Assembly (NCBI GenBank): GCA_002753735.1
Contig: PEAN01000042.1
Coordinates: forward strand, 1-35,458
Direction of reading: 5' to 3'
Length of the DNA: 35,458 nt
Source of the DNA: Magnetococcales bacterium DCbin4
GTDB lineage: Bacteria; Pseudomonadota; Magnetococcia; Magnetococcales; UBA8363
A program made the position numbers and the translations under genes. The notes below the pieces were generated by a model. That model had not been told where the DNA came from. It saw only the letters and a list, made by a program, of their open reading frames with translations, and ran no database searches. Each line of letters opens with the position of its first letter. The stretch's first letter is position 1. Of the stretch, positions 5,096-31,295 are shown one piece after another.

Positions 5096-5301
5096 GGCCT
5101 CTCTTTTTGAATGGATGGCATGTCACTGCTGGAAAATGGCGGTTGCCCGGGATCGATTCCCATCCGGAAGGAGTGATGTGGCAGAAGGATCCCTCGCTCA
5201 AAACCTTCCCCACCCGCACGCAAAATCGGATGACCTCCAAACCAGGCCAATACCAGCAGGGCCAGGGCAACCCACATCCCAAACATCATGTTGGTATCCA
5301 T
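5092..5301 (-). CDS. Small single-pass membrane protein coupled to kup
   Basis: This 69-residue protein has one strong N-terminal hydrophobic helix (MMFGMWVALALLVLAWFGG) and a polar tail. I recognise no family. The ATG at 5301 is preceded by AAAGGAATTCCC, a good ribosome site. A GTG five codons upstream (5316) keeps the frame but would place that site inside the gene. Its TGA overlaps the kup ATG (ATGA), which strongly suggests a real, translationally coupled gene. A role as a small subunit or modulator of Kup, by analogy with KdpF in the Kdp system, is inference only. Confidence 0.6.
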   Translation of the reverse strand: MDTNMMFGMWVALALLVLAWFGGHPILRAGGEGFERGILLPHHSFRMGIDPGQPPFSSSDMPSIQKERP

Positions 5302-5593
5302 GGGAATTCCTTTCACGTCTGAACAGAATGGAGATCAATTCTAGGAGGAAAAAGATCAAAACGGTCACAAAACGGGGCGGGAAATAATCAAGATTTTGTC
5401 AAGAATGCCAAGCCGGCCCGCTTTTGGGTGGATAGTGCCGATCAAGCTGGAGTTCGTCGCTCATGGATTGCCGCAATAGTCAGGATCAATGAGCGTCTCG
5501 CAAGAAAAAAGCTTGGTGGACTGACACCGTTTCATGCAATCAACGTTTTGTGATATAAAGGCTTTTCCGTTCCACCAAGGGGGAGGGAAGGCC
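5302..5593. other. Intergenic region between the kup operon and the chimeric ORF
   Basis: No gene is supported. The 9-base inverted pair CTTGGTGGA (5512-5520) and TCCACCAAG (5571-5579) lies just before the transposase-derived start. It could be a regulatory palindrome or part of the old insertion-sequence end. I could not identify a clear IS terminal repeat or target duplication. Confidence 0.4.
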
Positions 5594-5998
5594 ATGGATG
5601 GGCCAGAGATCGTTTTGGATGTTGGATGTGTGAATCCAGAATGCGAACATTTCGGGATCAAGGGGTTGGGGAACGTGATGGTCCGTCGCCGGTATGGGAC
5701 CAGCGGAATCCGGTTTCTTCGGTGTCGGCATCGTCAGCATGAATTTTCCGAACGGAATGGCACGCCTCTGTACGACCTGCGGGTCCCCAAGGAGAAGATT
5801 GTGGCCGTGGTCAGCCATCTGGCGGAGGGAACCTACGTGCGCAAGACAGCCCGGTTGACCGGAGTATCCAGGGACACCGTTGGCCGCATTCTCAAGCGGG
5901 TTGGTCGCCATGCCCGGGAGATTCATGACCGGTTGGTCCGAGATCTGGAGATCCCGGAAGTCCAGATGGACGAAATGTGGTCCTTCGTGGGAAAAAAT
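5594..5998 (+). mobile_element. Truncated IS1-type transposase gene remnant (5' part)
   Basis: This part encodes the DNA-binding front of an IS1-like transposase and stops just after the first acidic catalytic motif (DEMW). The remaining DDE region and the right end of the element are missing, because the frame runs into glycosyltransferase sequence near base 6000. The element cannot transpose by itself. The boundary is judged from the change in protein similarity, so it is accurate only to perhaps 15 bases. Confidence 0.7.
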
Positions 5999-7348
5999 TT
6001 CCACAAGCTGCAAATCTGCTCCCGGGACGATCCCCTGGATCAGGCGATCACCCGTCTGCGGACCCTGATCCACCAGAACGTCGGCGACATCGATCCCTAT
6101 CTGCTGGTCTTCATCTGCCGCAGTCCCGCCGAACTGCAAAAAGCGGCGCGCAACTACAGTCGGCATCTCCTGGCCGCGGTCACCCCGCTGCCACCCACCC
6201 CTTCCGTGCAACGACAGCGGGTCCATATCGGCTATCTTTCAGCCGACTTCCACCAACACGCCACCAGCGTTCTGGCAGCAGAACTGTTCGAATCCCACGA
6301 CCGCAACCGGTTCCACATCTCCGCCTATTCCGTGGGACCCGAAGATCACAGCCCCATGCGGGATCGGCTGTACCACGCCTTCGACCATTTTTGCGATGGG
6401 AGCAACCTGACCGACGAAGCCCTGGCCCAGAAAATACGCCAGGATGGCATCGACATCCTGGTGGACCTCAAAGGGTATACCCGTGATGCCCGCCCACGGG
6501 TCCTGGCCATGCGCCCCGCCCCCCTGCAGATCAACCATCTGGGCTTCCCGGGGACCATGGGTGCCCGCTTCATGGATTATATCGTCGCCGATGGCATCGT
6601 CCTGCCGCCCGAACATGAACCCTTCTTCGATGAACACCCCATCCGGCTGCCCCACGGCTACCAGGTCAATGATGCCCAACGCGCCATCGCCCCGGATCCC
6701 CTCACCCGCCGCCAGGCGGGATTACCTGAGCGGGGAATGGTGTTTTGTTGCTTCAATCAAAGCGCCATGATCACCCCGGAACTGCTGGCGCTCTGGCTAC
6801 GGCTGCTCAAACACATCCCCGAAAGCATCCTGTGGCTGTTGGCGTTCCACCCCTTCGCCATGAAACGGTTACATGCCATGGCCGCCTCCGTCGGCATCGA
6901 ACCACAACGGCTGATCTTTGCCCCCCGCCTGCCGTTGGCGCAACATTTAGCCCGCTATCGCCTGGCCGATCTGTTTTTGGATACCCTCCCCTGCGGTGCC
7001 CATACCACCGCCAGCGATGCCCTGTGGGGCGGTTGCCCCGTTCTGACCTGCATGGGCCCCACCTTCCCCGGCCGGGTCGCCGCCAGCCTGCTCATTCATC
7101 TGGGATTGCCCCAACTGGTCACCACCACCCTGGCCGAATATGAACGCATGGCCATGACACTGGCGCTGGATCATCAACAGCGGCAACACTTGCGTCACCA
7201 CCTGCACCAACGGATCACTTCAAGCCCGATTTTCAACGGCCGCATCTTCGCACGGCATCTGGAACAGGGATTCCTTGAAGCCTGGAAACGTCACCTGCAA
7301 CACCGACCCCCCGCCCCCATTCACATCCAGGCATCCATGATGATGTGA
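5594..7348 (+). CDS. Chimeric ORF: IS1-type transposase N-terminus fused to SPINDLY/O-GlcNAc-transferase-like domain
   Basis: The ATG at 5594 follows a strong ribosome site (GGGAGGGAAGG). Residues about 1-135 resemble an IS1-family transposase front: a zinc-finger-like segment (CVNPEC then CRHR), a helix-turn-helix (ARLTGVSRDTVGRILKRVG) and the start of the catalytic region (QMDEMWSFVGK). From about residue 136 (near base 6000) the sequence changes to the region before the catalytic domain of SPINDLY proteins. The GT41 domain follows: GYLSADFHQHATS, LGFPGTMGARFMDYIVAD, FCCFNQSAMITPE, and LADLFLDTLPCGAHTTASDALWGG. GT41 enzymes move GlcNAc or other sugars from nucleotide donors to Ser/Thr. The usual N-terminal TPR repeats are absent. 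The fourth zinc-finger cysteine is Arg (R47) and the lysine of the FN..YK motif is Met (M392). It may be a decaying gene fragment captured by an IS remnant, or a new fusion protein. The stop is 2 bases from that of convergent zapE. Confidence 0.8.
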   Translation: MDGPEIVLDVGCVNPECEHFGIKGLGNVMVRRRYGTSGIRFLRCRHRQHEFSERNGTPLYDLRVPKEKIVAVVSHLAEGTYVRKTARLTGVSRDTVGRILKRVGRHAREIHDRLVRDLEIPEVQMDEMWSFVGKNFHKLQICSRDDPLDQAITRLRTLIHQNVGDIDPYLLVFICRSPAELQKAARNYSRHLLAAVTPLPPTPSVQRQRVHIGYLSADFHQHATSVLAAELFESHDRNRFHISAYSVGPEDHSPMRDRLYHAFDHFCDGSNLTDEALAQKIRQDGIDILVDLKGYTRDARPRVLAMRPAPLQINHLGFPGTMGARFMDYIVADGIVLPPEHEPFFDEHPIRLPHGYQVNDAQRAIAPDPLTRRQAGLPERGMVFCCFNQSAMITPELLALWLRLLKHIPESILWLLAFHPFAMKRLHAMAASVGIEPQRLIFAPRLPLAQHLARYRLADLFLDTLPCGAHTTASDALWGGCPVLTCMGPTFPGRVAASLLIHLGLPQLVTTTLAEYERMAMTLALDHQQRQHLRHHLHQRITSSPIFNGRIFARHLEQGFLEAWKRHLQHRPPAPIHIQASMMM

Positions 7349-7350
7349 AA

Positions 7351-8424
7351 TCACAGCGTACAATTCAAACGCATCAGTTCATGACAACGCGATGCCGCGC
7401 GCCGGAATTCAAAAGCAACCGGCCCTTCAGGACATAGTTCGTCGAACTCCAGGTCACTGAAAAGTCGCAACGGCATGCGGGATTCGTAAAGCAGGTCCAC
7501 CAGAATGACGAACCGGGAGGCGGAATCCACCACATTGGCCCGCAGATCGGGGATGCCGGAAATCATCACGGTCGTCGCCACCTCGCACAGATCCATGTAG
7601 TCGGCAACCCCCAGGGGACGCATGCATAATTCACGGAAGTCAAACCAATACAACCCATCCTTGTGGCCCCGCACCGCAACCTCATGACGGCCCAACACCA
7701 TGGTTTCGGACCGGGGCGCCATAAGGGCCAACCGGGTGAACTCCGCTGCGGGGTCCCCGCCCTTGATGCTGGTGGCGGGACCGCCCTTGCGCCGCCAGTC
7801 GGCACCACTGGAAAGATCCAACGGTTCGACATGCTTTTTTATGACTTTCAACAACGGGAGAAAACTGGCCCGGTTGTAGCCTCCCTTGAACAGATTGTCC
7901 GGTTCCCAGTTGGATGTGGCACACAGGGTCACCCCGCATTGAAACAAGGCATCCAACAATCGGCCCAACAGCATTCCGTCCGCAATGTGGTCGATGAAGA
8001 ATTCATCGAAACACAACAGCCGCGACTCCATGGCGATCTCGCTGGCGATATACAACATCACATCCACATTGACTTCCGGCCTGGCCTTGTGCAAACGATT
8101 GTGCAACTCGTCCATGAACGGATGAAAATGGACGCGGCGTTTTTCCGGAAACGGGACTGCATCGAAGACCGACTGCATCAACATTGACTTGCCCCGTCCC
8201 ACCGGCCCATGCAGATACAGCCCCCTGGGTTCCGGCACCCCATCCTCATAACGCCAGACCATCACCCCCTTATGCGTCGTCACCACCACCGGACGACACA
8301 ACGCTTCTACCAAACCATCCAGATAAGCCAGGGCAGCCGATTGATCCGAATCCGACGTCAACTGGCCATTGTTCAATTGTTCCTGATACTGTTGGCTGGG
8401 TTTGATCATTTTTTGTAGGGACAT
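7351..8424 (-). CDS. zapE: ZapE/AFG1-like cell-division ATPase
   Basis: The protein has 357 residues from the ATG at 8424 (MSLQKMIKPSQQY), a typical length. It carries a Walker A motif GPVGRGKS (residues 73-80) and a Walker B motif RLLCFDEFFI. The following ATSNWEPDNLFKGGYNRASFLPL segment is characteristic of the AFG1/ZapE family. In E. coli ZapE associates with the Z-ring and affects it in an ATP-dependent way; mitochondrial AFG1 works in protein quality control. Reading frame continues upstream to 8613, but those codons lack family similarity. It is divergent from the MerR gene and convergent with the chimeric ORF. Confidence 0.92.
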   Translation of the reverse strand: MSLQKMIKPSQQYQEQLNNGQLTSDSDQSAALAYLDGLVEALCRPVVVTTHKGVMVWRYEDGVPEPRGLYLHGPVGRGKSMLMQSVFDAVPFPEKRRVHFHPFMDELHNRLHKARPEVNVDVMLYIASEIAMESRLLCFDEFFIDHIADGMLLGRLLDALFQCGVTLCATSNWEPDNLFKGGYNRASFLPLLKVIKKHVEPLDLSSGADWRRKGGPATSIKGGDPAAEFTRLALMAPRSETMVLGRHEVAVRGHKDGLYWFDFRELCMRPLGVADYMDLCEVATTVMISGIPDLRANVVDSASRFVILVDLLYESRMPLRLFSDLEFDELCPEGPVAFEFRRAASRCHELMRLNCTL

Positions 8425-23096: not shown

Positions 23097-23789
23097 TCAA
23101 GCACGCAGCACCAACCATAACCGCCTCAAGGTCAATGCCGCCTGTTCAAAATCATAATTATCCACATGACAGGCCAATTCCCGGTACAGATCGCTCTTGA
23201 CCTTTTCCCCCAACAGCCGACTCAACGCATGGAGGCACACCTTGACCTCACCATCGCCATCCACGATGGCCTGTTCCAGACACTTGAGCGCCTTTGTCAA
23301 ACACGGGTCATCCGGCGACCTTGCCCCCCCGGACAACGAGGCATCCCCCTGCGCTCCCCCACCCTCCATCTGGCCATCCAACACCGACAAGGAATTCACA
23401 ATCCGGTTCAATGCCATCTTGAAACTTGATATCTGTGGCTCCGGCACCCCTTCCCAACCAACCTTTCCCTCGCCAAAATATTGTTCCATCTCCAAAGAAC
23501 GGTCCCGCAATTCCATGGCACCCACCGTGGCGGCTACCCCTTTAAGGGTATGAAACATGCGCCGGATTTCCATCCCATCGCCCCGATTCATGTTGTCCGT
23601 CAACTGATCCATGAACGAACAACAACGCCGGGCCAGGTTGACCAACACCTTGCGATACAGCCGTTGACTGCCATCCATATTGGATAGCCCTTCCTCCATG
23701 TCGATGCCGTCCAACACCTCGGGCACCTCGGGCAAACACCCCCATTCCGAGGGATCCTCATTGGACAAGGATGGCGATTCCACAGACAT
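23097..23789 (-). CDS. Hpt phosphotransfer-domain protein
   Basis: The 230-residue protein carries a histidine phosphotransfer domain with His80 in FHTLKGVAATVG, the classic xHxxKG pattern. An acidic N-terminal tail precedes it. The C-terminal part (about residues 140-230) is helical-looking and may be a second, degenerate four-helix unit; it has no clear second HxxKG motif. It probably relays phosphate to the adjacent receiver-GGDEF protein. The ATG at 23789 has GGAG just upstream, preferred over the TTG at 23801. The 80 bases between this gene and gmd may hold the promoter. Confidence 0.88.
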   Translation of the reverse strand: MSVESPSLSNEDPSEWGCLPEVPEVLDGIDMEEGLSNMDGSQRLYRKVLVNLARRCCSFMDQLTDNMNRGDGMEIRRMFHTLKGVAATVGAMELRDRSLEMEQYFGEGKVGWEGVPEPQISSFKMALNRIVNSLSVLDGQMEGGGAQGDASLSGGARSPDDPCLTKALKCLEQAIVDGDGEVKVCLHALSRLLGEKVKSDLYRELACHVDNYDFEQAALTLRRLWLVLRA

Positions 23790-23869
23790 GCCGATCTCCA
23801 AAGACGTTCATCAAAGCGTTACCAACAGGCCGTCCCCCTTACAACAGCAATCCCATTCCCCCCATCGGG

Positions 23870-24973
23870 TCAGCCATCCAAAGATCCCGCCCCTTGGATG
23901 GGAACGCCACGTTTCATCAGCATTTTTTCCAGCTTGGCCTTTTGAAGGTCATGTTCAACCATCTCCTTGACCAACTCGCGAAAGGTGATCCGGGGACGCC
24001 ATCCCAATTTTTCCCTGGCCTTGGTTGGATCTCCAAGGAGATTGTCCACTTCCGTCGGCCGAAAATAACGTGGATCGACACGGACGATCACGCGGCCCGT
24101 TTTTTGTTCCAGCCCGATCTCTTCCAGCCCCTTTCCCTGCCAGACGATCTTCATCCCAAGGTATTCACCCACGGTTTCCACGAACGCGCGCACCGAATAC
24201 TGTTGCCCCGTGGCGATCACATAATCATCCGGTTGATCCTGTTGCAACATCAACCATTGCATCTCCACATAATCGCGCGCATGACCCCAGTCGCGCAGGG
24301 AATCCATGTTGCCCAACAACAAGGTCTCATCCAATCCCATTTTGATCCGCGTCAAGGCACGGGTGATTTTCCGAGTGACGAACGTTTCACCCCGAAGAGG
24401 CGATTCATGGTTGAACAGAATACCGTTACAACCAAAAATCCCATAGGCTTCCCGATAATTGACCGTGATCCAATAAGCGTACAGCTTGGCAGCGGCATAA
24501 GGGGAACGGGGACGAAATGGCGTCGTTTCCCGTTGTGGACATTCCTGGACCAATCCATAAAGCTCGGATGTCGATGCCTGATAAAAACGGGTTTTGCCCA
24601 CCAGATCCAGGATGCGGATCGCCTCCAGGACGCGCAATGGCCCCAGCGCGTCGGTATTGGCGGTATATTCGGGCGTTTCGAACGAAACCGCGACATGGCT
24701 TTGTGCCGCCAGATTATAGATTTCGTCAGGTTGGGTTTTTTGGATGATCCGGATCAGATTGGTGGAGTCGGTGACATCACCATAATGCAGGATGAAATTA
24801 CGGTCGGTGACATTTGGCCCCTGGTACAGATGATCGATGCGTTCGGTATTGAGTTGTGAGGAACGGCGCTTGATGCCGTGAACCACGTATCCCTTTCCCA
24901 GAAGGAATTCGGCAAGGTAGGCCCCATCCTGACCCGTGACACCCGTAATCAGCGCAACTTTTTTCGATGACAT
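23870..24973 (-). CDS. gmd: GDP-mannose 4,6-dehydratase
   Basis: Gmd turns GDP-D-mannose into GDP-4-keto-6-deoxymannose, the precursor of GDP-fucose, GDP-rhamnose and related sugars of surface glycans. The 367-residue protein has the nucleotide-binding [11 protein letters not shown], the substrate loop [15 protein letters not shown], the STSELYG catalytic region and the YAAAK motif. The ATG at 24973 (MSSKKVALI) fits the family start; the frame is open to 25054. No partner reductase (fucose synthetase or Rmd type) is adjacent, so the final sugar cannot be told. Confidence 0.95.
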
Positions 24974-27315: not shown

Positions 27316-27757
27316 TGGATACCGCAGATCCCGTACCTGCAACCTCTGCGGCCCCAGCCGCCATTCCCGGAACGATCACCTCACGCGGGGCATGATCGGA
27401 AGTATCCAGAATTTCCCTTTCGGAGACCGCCCCCGTGTGATTTTTCATCCGGTCCATCATCTCCGTCTGCAATTGACCTTGAATGGTGTCATACATTCTG
27501 CGATGTGCCTGGATCCGGTATTCTTTTCTGCGATTTTCAAACTCCGCCGCCAGTTCCGCGTTCTTTCGTTGGACATAGCTGTCCAGGACCATGTAAATTC
27601 CCGACCCGATGGCGGCTACAATCACCACTGTGGCAATCAATGCCGGAGACAAAAACGATTTTTTGGGAACTTCCGCCTTGGGTTGTTTTTCCGACTCAGT
27701 CGCCGGGGCCGACGACTGGATGAGGCTATCCAATTCCGAATCCTGATTTTCCGCCAT
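27302..27757 (-). CDS. Single-pass membrane protein of unknown function
   Basis: The 151-residue protein has an acidic, Ser/Pro-rich N-terminus, one membrane helix (SPALIATVVIVAAIGSGIYM, about residues 37-57) and a charged helical segment (about 60-105, probable coiled coil). A Gly/Ala-rich tail ends it. No family was recognised. The ATG at 27757 with GGAATGATCCC before it is preferred to the TTG at 27772. It overlaps trpF by 14 bases, so both are probably translated from one message. Confidence 0.7.
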   Translation of the reverse strand: MAENQDSELDSLIQSSAPATESEKQPKAEVPKKSFLSPALIATVVIVAAIGSGIYMVLDSYVQRKNAELAAEFENRRKEYRIQAHRRMYDTIQGQLQTEMMDRMKNHTGAVSEREILDTSDHAPREVIVPGMAAGAAEVAGTGSAVSNGSN

Positions 27758-27835
27758 GGGATCATTCCACAAGAGTATGGGTTGGACAAAGCATTCGCAT
27801 CATGCCGATGCGTCGGACATCATCCGCTGCATGCA

Positions 27836-29014
27836 TCATTCATGCCCCTTTCCGCCGGAGGAGGAAACCGAACCCTTTGTCAAACGCAACCATCCCTCCG
27901 CCAGACATTCTGCAATCAAAGCGGACATTTTATCATTGTAATGGACCCGATCCACATACAGCAATTCATTCCTGCCGTTCTGGACTTCGGCACACCAGAC
28001 GAAATGGTCATCCAAGGGGACTTTTTGCAAACGCTGGACAAACGCTTCATAGCCGGGACCGCTCAGGGGATGTTCCTTCAACACACCCCGGACCAGATGT
28101 TGATTCGGGCGATGATGCCAGGTGGGGACCGGCTGCCAGGCGAAAAGGACCCCAATCCCATAAGCCTGAGCGGAAGCCCGGATCAACGTCTGGTTGGTCA
28201 AATAACGGTCGATCACGGCATGGACCACCGCAGGATCTTTTTCAGGAACCGATGCGGGAGCGGCGATCAGGCGGTGGTGTATCTTGCCGGCAAGCCGCAC
28301 CAGGGATCGTTCAGCCAGCCATGGCGGCATGCCGGAAGGTGCGTCCCGGGGCATCACCTGGCGCAGCCGATCCGTAAAGAACGGCTGGTCGCGATCATGA
28401 AAGAAATCATTGAGGCCATCCAGGAACATGACCGCATCGGGGCGGATTCCCGCGACCAACAGCCGTTGGAATTGAATCAACTCTTGAGATGAATAATAGA
28501 ATCCCTGGCCAAAGTTATAGACCCGAACCGGTCGTCCCCCCTGGCCGGAGAGCAACGGTTGGAGGTGGGCGGCGATGGTTTCCCCATCCTCAATCCCATA
28601 GCCAAAGGTCGTCGAGCCCCCGAACAGGAAGACATTCCACCCCTCCTTGTCGGGCGGCCAGGGCAAAGGGGTTCCGGAATTCCGGAATCCTACGCTTGCG
28701 ACCTGGACGTAGGTTCCAGAAAAGGCCGTTTCACGAAACTGGACAAAGGGTTCGTAGGTATAGTTTCTGGACCAGGTTTCCCGCAGCAATGCCTGAATCC
28801 TGTCCCAGGTTTTCCCCGAATAGGCCGTTTCAAGCGTCTCCTGGCCGAACTGAGCGATGATTTTCTGGTCCGGGGTCTGGGGTGGATCATAAAAATTCAA
28901 CCCGATCCCGACGACGCCGTTACCCAGAACGAGCAACAATACCGTATTGAAGACGAGCAATGCCACGGAGGTATAGGCGGTACGCCACGCCCCGATTCGC
29001 CCGTTCATGGTCAT
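27836..29014 (-). CDS. SGNH-hydrolase-like membrane-anchored protein
   Basis: The 392-residue protein has an N-terminal membrane helix (VALLVFNTVLLLVLGNGVVG, about residues 17-36) and an extracytoplasmic part. This has SGNH-type blocks: FGGSTTFGYG with the likely nucleophile Ser134, a VYNFGQG block with a conserved Gly, MFLDGLNDF with Asn, and VDRVHYNDKMS with the Asp/His pair near the end. The family includes esterases and acetyl-transfer partners that act on surface glycans. The ATG at 29014 overlaps the upstream stop as ATGA, so it is coupled to the methyltransferase gene. Confidence 0.8.
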   Translation of the reverse strand: MTMNGRIGAWRTAYTSVALLVFNTVLLLVLGNGVVGIGLNFYDPPQTPDQKIIAQFGQETLETAYSGKTWDRIQALLRETWSRNYTYEPFVQFRETAFSGTYVQVASVGFRNSGTPLPWPPDKEGWNVFLFGGSTTFGYGIEDGETIAAHLQPLLSGQGGRPVRVYNFGQGFYYSSQELIQFQRLLVAGIRPDAVMFLDGLNDFFHDRDQPFFTDRLRQVMPRDAPSGMPPWLAERSLVRLAGKIHHRLIAAPASVPEKDPAVVHAVIDRYLTNQTLIRASAQAYGIGVLFAWQPVPTWHHRPNQHLVRGVLKEHPLSGPGYEAFVQRLQKVPLDDHFVWCAEVQNGRNELLYVDRVHYNDKMSALIAECLAEGWLRLTKGSVSSSGGKGHE

Positions 29015-29691
29015 CGGATCGCCTCCAGGTTCAGGCTGATGAAAATTTTTTCTCCGGCGCAGTCGATCTTGAGTGAAGAGCAATCGGGAATCATGGGGAT
29101 CGTCCCCTCGTCGGGGTGCCAGGGGCGGACGGTCGTAAACCCTGCTGCCAACAGCAATTGGCGCAGCCAGGGTTCATCGAAGGCGGCCAGGTGGGCATTT
29201 TCCCGATAATCCTGCTGCCCGAACAGGGGGGCCTGGATTGTTTCCACGTTGTGACCGGAACGAAGGTAGAGTTCGATGATTTTTTGGAAATCGGGGACGG
29301 AAAGCCGCAGAATCCCACCCGGCTTGAGCACCCGACGCCATTCCCACAAGGTAGCGGCGATGCGTGGACGGGGGATGTGTTCGAGGACATGGGAACCATA
29401 GACCAGGTCTACCGAACCATCCGCGAACCGGGAAAGGTCGCCGACATCGCCGACCAGGTGGACATGGGGAGCGGGACGGGCATCGACGTTGATGAAGCCG
29501 GGAATGTCCAATTCACCGCATCCCAGGTGAAGCCATACCCGACCGTCGCGATGGTGCGGCAGCGGCAGGGGAAAAAACCGTTGCCATTGAAGCAGGATCC
29601 AGGATTTGATCCGTCGCCGCAATCGCAGGAACAACCAGTGTATCCGATGGATGATCCGTTCGCGCAGAGTTGCCATCCGCCCCCCCGTCAT
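29011..29691 (-). CDS. SAM-dependent methyltransferase (class I)
   Basis: The 226-residue protein has a basic N-terminus followed by a class I methyltransferase fold: LHLGCGELDIPGFINVD (SAM motif I), DLVYGSHVLEHIPRP and VLKPGGILRLSVPD. Such proteins are common in glycan clusters, where they methylate sugars, but the substrate here is unknown. The ATG at 29691 overlaps the rlmM stop as ATGA; MATLRER at 29676 is an alternative start. It in turn overlaps the SGNH gene by 4 bases. Confidence 0.87.
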   Translation of the reverse strand: MTGGRMATLRERIIHRIHWLFLRLRRRIKSWILLQWQRFFPLPLPHHRDGRVWLHLGCGELDIPGFINVDARPAPHVHLVGDVGDLSRFADGSVDLVYGSHVLEHIPRPRIAATLWEWRRVLKPGGILRLSVPDFQKIIELYLRSGHNVETIQAPLFGQQDYRENAHLAAFDEPWLRQLLLAAGFTTVRPWHPDEGTIPMIPDCSSLKIDCAGEKIFISLNLEAIR

Positions 29692-30785
29692 TCCCGCGAA
29701 GGCGGGAACCCCTTTTTCTTATTAATCATATTCAATACGCCCGTCACCTCTTCCCGATCATGGTACAATTGCCGCAGGTACAGATGGAACGGAATACCGG
29801 CCTGACGCAACGTCGCCACCATCCGTTCCCGACACAATTGCACCTCTTCCCACCGTTTTTTCATGGGCAGCTTCAGATTGAACACCGCACCACGGCACCA
29901 ACCACGGCCCCCCCACCGGGCAATCAAATCAGCGACCCGGCGTGGTTGATCGACGATGTCACACAACAACCAGTCCGCAGGGGGATGGGGCTGAAAACGA
30001 AATCCATCCTCACGCACATGGCGCACCAAAGGCGATGCCAGGACAGGAGCCGCCAACGCCCCCCGGTCCACGGCAGTCACCTTGATGCCACGCCGGACCA
30101 TGGACCAGGTCCACCCCCCGGGGGCAGCCCCCAGATCGACAGCGGTTTGTCCGGCACGGGGTGTCATGGCCTCATTGGCAAACGTGACCAGGGCCTCTTC
30201 AAGTTTCAGGGCGGAACGACTGGGGGATTCAGGGGGAAGACGCAATCTGGGCAACCCCATGGGCCAGCGGGAACTGTTGTACGGGAGGGAATACCCCGTC
30301 ATCGCCCGGGTTCCCGACAAGAACACCACCTCCCCGCGCACCCCACCCCCCTCTGGACCGGGGATCCCCTCCTCGCGCAACAAGGCACCCAAACGCCCAT
30401 CCAGGGAGTGACACAGAGGAGCCAATACCCGCCCCGCCTCCGCATCCGGCCACCCCAGCCACACATCGGAAAAGGGTCCAATCCATTGCGTCATGGCCTT
30501 GAGCCGATCACGCAAACCTTCGATGCGATCTCCCGGAGTCAGGGCGACCTCCTCCGCCGCCACTGCCACGAGATGCCGGGTGAACACCAGGTGCCGAAAC
30601 GAAATCTTTTCGAGCAGAATGCCACCATCCCCGGAATGTTCGGGTTGGATCGTGACATAACCCGAGCCGGCAGCACCGGCACCTGCCGCAGCCCGCCCCG
30701 TTTCGGCAATGACCGCTTCCAGTTCCAACCGGCATTCCTGCTCAAAACCGGCGCGGCAAAATGCCAGGAGTTGCAATGCAACCAT
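29688..30785 (-). CDS. rlmM: 23S rRNA 2'-O-ribose methyltransferase RlmM
   Basis: RlmM methylates the 2'-hydroxyl of C2498 in E. coli 23S rRNA. The 365-residue protein has the RlmM N-terminal region (CRAGFEQECRLELEA), then the SAM-binding VDLGAAPGGWTWSMVRRG, then DWLLCDIVDQPRRV and a catalytic-type lysine in FNLKLPMKKRW. Its last residues (FPPSRE) are encoded inside a small palindrome (29691-29708), so the natural C-terminus may once have been different. Confidence 0.92.
   Translation of the reverse strand: MVALQLLAFCRAGFEQECRLELEAVIAETGRAAAGAGAAGSGYVTIQPEHSGDGGILLEKISFRHLVFTRHLVAVAAEEVALTPGDRIEGLRDRLKAMTQWIGPFSDVWLGWPDAEAGRVLAPLCHSLDGRLGALLREEGIPGPEGGGVRGEVVFLSGTRAMTGYSLPYNSSRWPMGLPRLRLPPESPSRSALKLEEALVTFANEAMTPRAGQTAVDLGAAPGGWTWSMVRRGIKVTAVDRGALAAPVLASPLVRHVREDGFRFQPHPPADWLLCDIVDQPRRVADLIARWGGRGWCRGAVFNLKLPMKKRWEEVQLCRERMVATLRQAGIPFHLYLRQLYHDREEVTGVLNMINKKKGFPPSRE
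29691..29708. repeat. Short palindromic (REP-like) element at the rlmM end
   Basis: TTCCCGC-GAAG-GCGGGAA forms a 7-base-pair stem. The CATTCCCGCG...GCGGGAA form is a widespread bacterial short palindromic repeat type. It spans the last rlmM codons and the first bases of the overlapping methyltransferase start. Confidence 0.7.
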
Positions 30786-31295
30786 TCAGATCCCCCCGCT
30801 TTTGGTAACGATCAAAAAAAGGGTCTGGGAAACGAAATCCCCCAAAGTTCGTAACGATTCAGCACCCCATTTGCATTAAAATCATTGAGAAAAAAAAGGG
30901 GACTGGGGGATTGCCCCCAGGGTGTTGACTTTGTTTTTGATTTTGGTTTTACATCCCCCACATGGGGTTTGGGGGACGAAGTCCCCCAAGGTTCTGACTT
31001 TGGTGATCGATCACAATCATAATTAAAAAATTTTGGTAACGATTCAGCGCCCCCTTCATATTGGAACTATTGAAAGAAAAAAGGGGGCTTAAGGGATTGC
31101 CCCCAGGGTTTTGACATTTAAGCAAAAGCGCCAATTTTTGCTTTTGATTTCGTTTTCGACTTTAAAAACAAAGTCAAAACCCTGGGGGCAATCCCCCAGA
31201 CCCCTTTTTTTTCTTAATCATGAATGTCAACACGCCCGAAGGGGATCTGAACGGTGACGATGCAATCGATCATTCATGGGCATCGAAGGATCGGG
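30786..31295. repeat. Second dense cluster of dispersed repeats
   Basis: No gene is supported in these 510 bases. At least three copies of the G/C-box repeat are present, in both directions: near 30890-30940 (minus), 31075-31115 (minus) and 31165-31212 (plus). They are joined by modules TTTGGTAACGATTCAGC (two full and one partial) and a block near 30955-31005 (CCCCCACATGGGG...GGGGGACGAAGTCCCCC). This block matches, inverted, bases 330-380. Confidence 0.85.
30890..30920 (-). terminator. Terminator-like hairpin upstream of rlmM
   Basis: On the minus strand CTGGGGG-CAAT-CCCCCAG (30920-30903) is followed by TCCCC and eight T. It would end leftward transcripts from the glycosyltransferase genes before rlmM. 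It is part of a dispersed repeat. Confidence 0.5.

Follow-up and report, generated by a model that had tools for sequence, protein, structure and literature searches.

The window, a stretch of 35,458 nucleotides covering positions 1 to 35,458 of the forward strand of contig PEAN01000042.1 from Magnetococcales bacterium DCbin4 (assembly GCA_002753735.1), carries on its plus strand a stop-free frame of 584 codons (5594–7348; ATG at 5594, TGA at 7346–7348). As the earlier note on this DNA had described, this single frame opens as an IS1-like transposase gene and runs on into the catalytic domain of a GT41 O-GlcNAc transferase (OGT), with the boundary at 5997/5998. The most upstream ATG available to it lies at 5534 and would give a product of 604 aa. 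The features of the locus are listed in Table 1.

Table 1. Features of the chimeric locus, in window coordinates.
Feature	Position	Strand	Basis
Left fragment of IS1-like insertion sequence	5512..5997	+	DNA alignment with IS copies from other genomes
Left terminal inverted repeat, CTTGGTGGACTGACA	5512..5526	+	Left-end copies begin at 5512
Transposase N-terminal part, codons 1–134 (zinc-finger region, HTH, first acidic motif DEMW)	5594..5995	+	NF033558, HTH families, alignment with L028, L029 and L031
C47R, last Cys of the zinc-finger motif (CRHC to CRHR)	5732..5734	+	Cys-codon base in 8/8 other copies covering the site
G81Y, conserved HTH-region Gly, two changes in one codon	5834..5836	+	Gly in 6/6 other copies
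Junction codon 135, with AA contributed by the IS A-run and T by the OGT	5996..5998	+	IS-copy and OGT-orthologue alignments
3′ three quarters of GT41 OGT-like gene, TPR region entirely lost	5998..7348	+	Pfam, XcOGT, intact orthologues
W144R, beside the junction	6023..6025	+	Alignment; Trp in 11/11 relatives aligned there
Y315H, in motif (Y/W/F)LG(Y/F)PGT	6536..6538	+	Alignment; aromatic in 24/26 relatives
K392M, catalytic Lys of GT41	6767..6769	+	Alignment; Lys in 26/26 relatives

Domain content of the chimeric frame

The C-terminal part of the frame matched the Pfam family Glyco_transf_41 (PF13844) in hmmscan with an E-value of 9e-89 and 298.5 bits against a cut-off of 25, which identifies it as a GT41 domain. 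Its best solved relative is XcOGT (PDB 2jlb, E 5e-93), aligned over residues 147–536; the GT41 assignment made from the sequence alone thus stands, with XcOGT rather than SPINDLY as the closest solved relative. No TPR family was detected in the fusion protein by the Pfam scan. These repeats were detected in the intact orthologue L046, and their loss, as previously noted, is confirmed.

The N-terminal part is a more distant match. It was recognised by the NCBIfam model transpos_IS1 (NF033558) with an E-value of 8e-9 and 35.8 bits, below the curated cut-off of 100, and no IS1 model matched in the Pfam profile scan of the chimeric frame. A longer relative of the insertion sequence (L031) likewise remained below this cut-off, at 55.9 bits, and the description of the front as IS1-type holds as a distant likeness. 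Helix–turn–helix (HTH) families were found in this part by Pfam, with a best E-value of 7e-5 for the whole open reading frame and 2e-5 for the transposase part alone. A structure prediction of the fusion, with a seven-sequence alignment as input, gave a mean pLDDT of 36.5, too low to be informative.

The insertion-sequence fragment

Elsewhere in the order, genomes carry copies of the insertion sequence (IS) that align to the window over exactly the interval given in Table 1 and no further. The left 486 bp are therefore all that remains in the window of an element that measures approximately 1.2–1.4 kb when complete, and the rest of the transposase is gone with the missing right part, as the earlier note had concluded. 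The closest copy, L030, is found in a different family of the same order (genome G022) and is 96% identical to the IS part of the window, with L028, L029 and L031 at 81–84% identity. The 15-bp terminal repeat has the consensus CTTGGTGGCCTGACA, from which the window differs only at 5520 (C in 9/9 other copies). The right ends in L029, L031 and L040 read TGTCAGGCCACCAAG, the reverse complement of the left repeat, so the element is bounded by terminal inverted repeats.

Within the transposase part, DEMW is the sole acidic motif before the junction, leaving the DDE catalytic core incomplete. The HTH and DEMW elements first read from the sequence were recovered, and the zinc finger proved incomplete through C47R. 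With the IS1 family (InsA repressor and InsAB′ transposase) the window IS shares the zinc-finger/HTH part, DEMW, an A-run ending the first frame and 15-bp terminal repeats; it differs in keeping only its left 486 bp, in its changed zinc-finger Cys and HTH-region Gly, and in lacking the catalytic core and the right end. Ribosomes translating Escherichia coli IS1 shift from the InsA frame into InsB at an A6C motif close to the end of insA, and binding of the IS1 ends requires both the zinc finger and the HTH (PMC12428005).

No intact copy of the IS was found in the window's genome, where its right half is absent except for a distant 70% fragment elsewhere, and the other relatives present are limited to a degenerate 76% fragment and distant pieces. 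This degenerate fragment is a second left end of the same IS type (C92:5283-5586; L002:1501-1804), 76% identical and with stops in the transposase frame. Viral contigs yielded no confirmed relatives of the transposase part.

The junction

The break at 5997/5998 falls within the A-run at which relatives of the IS switch frame (window GGGAAAAAATTTCC, L030 GGGGAAAAAAAGAC), and homology to intact OGT genes begins at 5998. The A-run is also present at this point in L028–L031 and L033, and the frame downstream of it varies by copy, marking it as a putative frameshift run. Its length is approximately 7 to 9 A depending on the copy (L028, L029, L030, L031); owing to this variation the second frame lies in different registers, shifted in some copies and fused in one. 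The run may act by slippage or may be prone to indels. Because the break lies inside it, the fusion consists of the InsA-like part followed by the OGT in the unshifted frame. The A-run is a plausible break point, and coincidence may also lie behind the position of the break. There was no clear case of microhomology at the junction, and a join at this point should be in frame by chance about one time in three. A search for the exact junction, allowing up to three mismatches, returned the window's genome alone among 48 genomes of the order, and the same junction was not found in viral contigs.

The OGT part and its lost partner

Intact orthologues of the OGT gene (L046/L009, L010 and L047/L011, with sizes among them of 600, 636 and 592 aa) are present in three congeneric genomes (G007, G006 and G004) and are 84–88% identical to the window over the shared part. 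In all three, a TIGR03032/DUF4915 gene lies within a few bases upstream of the OGT gene (family assigned for L046), and the pairs occupy L046:1038-3941, L047:4468-7332 and L010:1372-4290. Since the two genes adjoin despite differing wider neighbourhoods, they resemble a pair that is mobile or maintained together. TIGR03032 has no known function; it might act together with this OGT. A 1539-base query spanning TIGR03032 and the TPR part matched strongly in G007, G006 and G004, which served as positive controls, and gave no match in the window's genome. The OGT TPRs and the TIGR03032 gene are thus absent from this genome, along with the IS right half save for its distant fragment.

Each relative has a different set of genes around its OGT gene, and the two genes on either side of the window copy, kup and zapE, sit elsewhere and apart in the relatives; for these reasons the ancestral site could not be located by synteny. 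The earlier note had named intact genes at this locus in relatives as grounds against its reading; an uninterrupted TPR-OGT gene does occur in relatives, but at other loci. At the 3′ side, the OGT frame in the window is intact almost to its natural C-terminus. A second rearrangement point is probable at approximately 7340, where homology to the orthologues stops, and just 3 bases separate the end of the chimeric frame from that of a convergent AFG1/zapE-like gene (window 7340–7360). Elsewhere in the window, candidate long plus-strand frames with no Pfam match at E 1e-6 lie at 23771–24859, 27392–28492 and 29670–30854.

Residue changes in both halves

Conservation of the OGT part was assessed in an alignment of 26 relatives, in which 78 sites were at least 90% conserved. 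The window deviates at one of these sites, residue 392, and the three intact orthologues at none. Residue 392 falls in the column of the Lys of XcOGT CCFNNSYK, and the catalytic Lys of the CCFNxxxK motif is therefore missing from the fusion. We take this Lys to be K388 of XcOGT, equivalent to K842 of human OGT. Like its GT41 homologues (XcOGT, 2jlb/2vsy; human OGT; SPINDLY), the fusion has an alignable catalytic domain with most motifs kept, among them AHTTASD and His222 (the counterpart, by alignment, of the His in XcOGT GAHPTG); unlike them, it is without TPRs, has Met in place of the catalytic Lys (K388/K842) and begins with a transposase. W144R and Y315H are radical changes additional to K392M. 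K842M is in standard use as an inactive form of OGT. Activity is undetectable in human OGT K842M and Drosophila OGT K872M, yet the human mutant retains UDP-GlcNAc binding (PMC4703063), and K842M abolishes both Nup62 glycosylation and HCF-1 proteolysis (PMC4840301). With K392M and no TPRs, the fusion protein is predicted to be without glycosyltransferase activity.

In the IS part, the window-only changes other than C47R and G81Y are V29M, I64V, two silent changes and one in the terminal repeat, and the coding changes amount to 5 nonsynonymous and 2 synonymous. From C47R and G81Y, DNA binding through the zinc finger is predicted to be weakened or absent.

Selection and age

Pairwise dN/dS for the OGT part is 0.16–0.22 among all four genomes, and the value for the window against G007, 0.18, is not elevated. 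Window-only codons in the OGT part comprise 23 synonymous and 9 nonsynonymous changes, and the other three genomes are alike (Fisher p = 0.53). Setting the IS part (5 nonsynonymous, 2 synonymous) against the OGT part (9 and 23) gave a difference that is suggestive only (Fisher p = 0.075). Relaxed selection was considered as the main proof of decay and rejected, as dN/dS of the OGT part is not raised. Either the fusion is young, then, or selection continues to act on it. On the simplest reading the OGT part had acquired nearly all of its divergence before the fusion arose; the same dN/dS picture would result if selection had continued on a non-catalytic role.

Stop codons arise from 2.8% of point changes in the chimeric frame, and the probability that it carries no stop after 20 changes is 0.57, so the open frame carries little weight as evidence of function. 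We infer that the frame is open through recency and not through selection.

Origin of the chimeric frame

The locus is, with high probability, a recent, in-frame chimeric pseudogene generated by an insertion sequence. An IS1-like element would have landed within or next to a TIGR03032–TPR-OGT gene pair. A subsequent deletion or rearrangement would have taken out the IS right part together with the TIGR03032 gene and the portion of the OGT gene that encodes the TPRs, leaving the A-run of the IS joined bluntly, and in frame by chance, to the linker that separates the TPRs from the catalytic domain. The end state is observed directly, and the order of these events is our reconstruction. Chimeric and truncated pseudogenes made by insertion sequences in bacteria typically place an IS end against a truncated host gene whose 5′ part and neighbour have been lost; the architecture here is the same, but in frame over 584 codons. 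The earlier note had offered two readings, a DNA-binding glycosyltransferase or a fortuitous in-frame relic. The relic is the better of the two: an in-frame join is expected about one time in three, the fusion is recent or at any rate shows no accompanying decay, each half has lost key residues, and the junction is shared by no relative. A 584-residue protein could nevertheless be made if the frame were transcribed from the IS end.

Such a protein might have been retained as a pseudoenzyme, expressed from an IS promoter and serving a non-catalytic role, for instance UDP-sugar binding coupled to binding of IS-end DNA in the manner of the InsA repressor. The InsA-like part is kept in its main reading frame as far as the frameshift run, nonsynonymous changes are not in excess in the OGT part, and the equivalent human mutant, K842M, retains UDP-GlcNAc binding (PMC4703063). 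Against this, C47R and G81Y strike the DNA-binding part at fully conserved positions, the fusion occurs in no relative, and the low dN/dS is equally well explained by recency; we regard this reading as improbable. Its more specific form, in which a recently born fusion of an InsA-like DNA-binding part with a catalytically dead, UDP-sugar-binding OGT domain owes its expression to the IS end and has been preserved as a pseudoenzyme with a regulatory role, is slightly less probable still.

An assembly chimera, in which the junction or the K392M base would be an artefact of a draft assembly of 148 contigs, is about as improbable as a retained pseudoenzyme. A single genome and a single assembly underlie both the fusion and the K to M change, and the junction lies at a homopolymer. 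However, the junction is internal to a 35-kb contig and neither missing half (IS right part or OGT front) is found elsewhere in the genome; moreover, the IS is no long repeat in this genome, so that an assembler would meet no such repeat to mislead it.

An active DNA-binding O-GlcNAc transferase, with the transposase part targeting the GT41 enzyme to DNA, would be in keeping with the uninterrupted frame, a GT41 domain that is complete by profile, and the kept His222 and AHTTASD motifs. The catalytic Lys is Met, a change that inactivates human and fly OGT, and the loss of the zinc-finger Cys, the TPRs and the partner gene, together with occurrence in a single genome, makes this enzyme very unlikely. 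Equally remote is translation of the OGT domain by itself, free of TPRs, from a start inside the frame, with the transposase part as no more than a leader: the OGT frame is intact nearly to its natural C-terminus, but a promoter scan over 5096–7420 gave no sigma-70-like site on the plus strand and a single site in all, at chance level, and the product is in any case predicted to be inactive (K392M).

Were the chimeric protein produced and maintained, a new DNA-binding pseudoenzyme would have been caught at birth, a prospect against which the residues argue. As the pseudogene that we favour, the locus is a snapshot of an insertion sequence building a long in-frame chimeric open reading frame by accident, and a warning against reading function into a fused frame because it is long and open.
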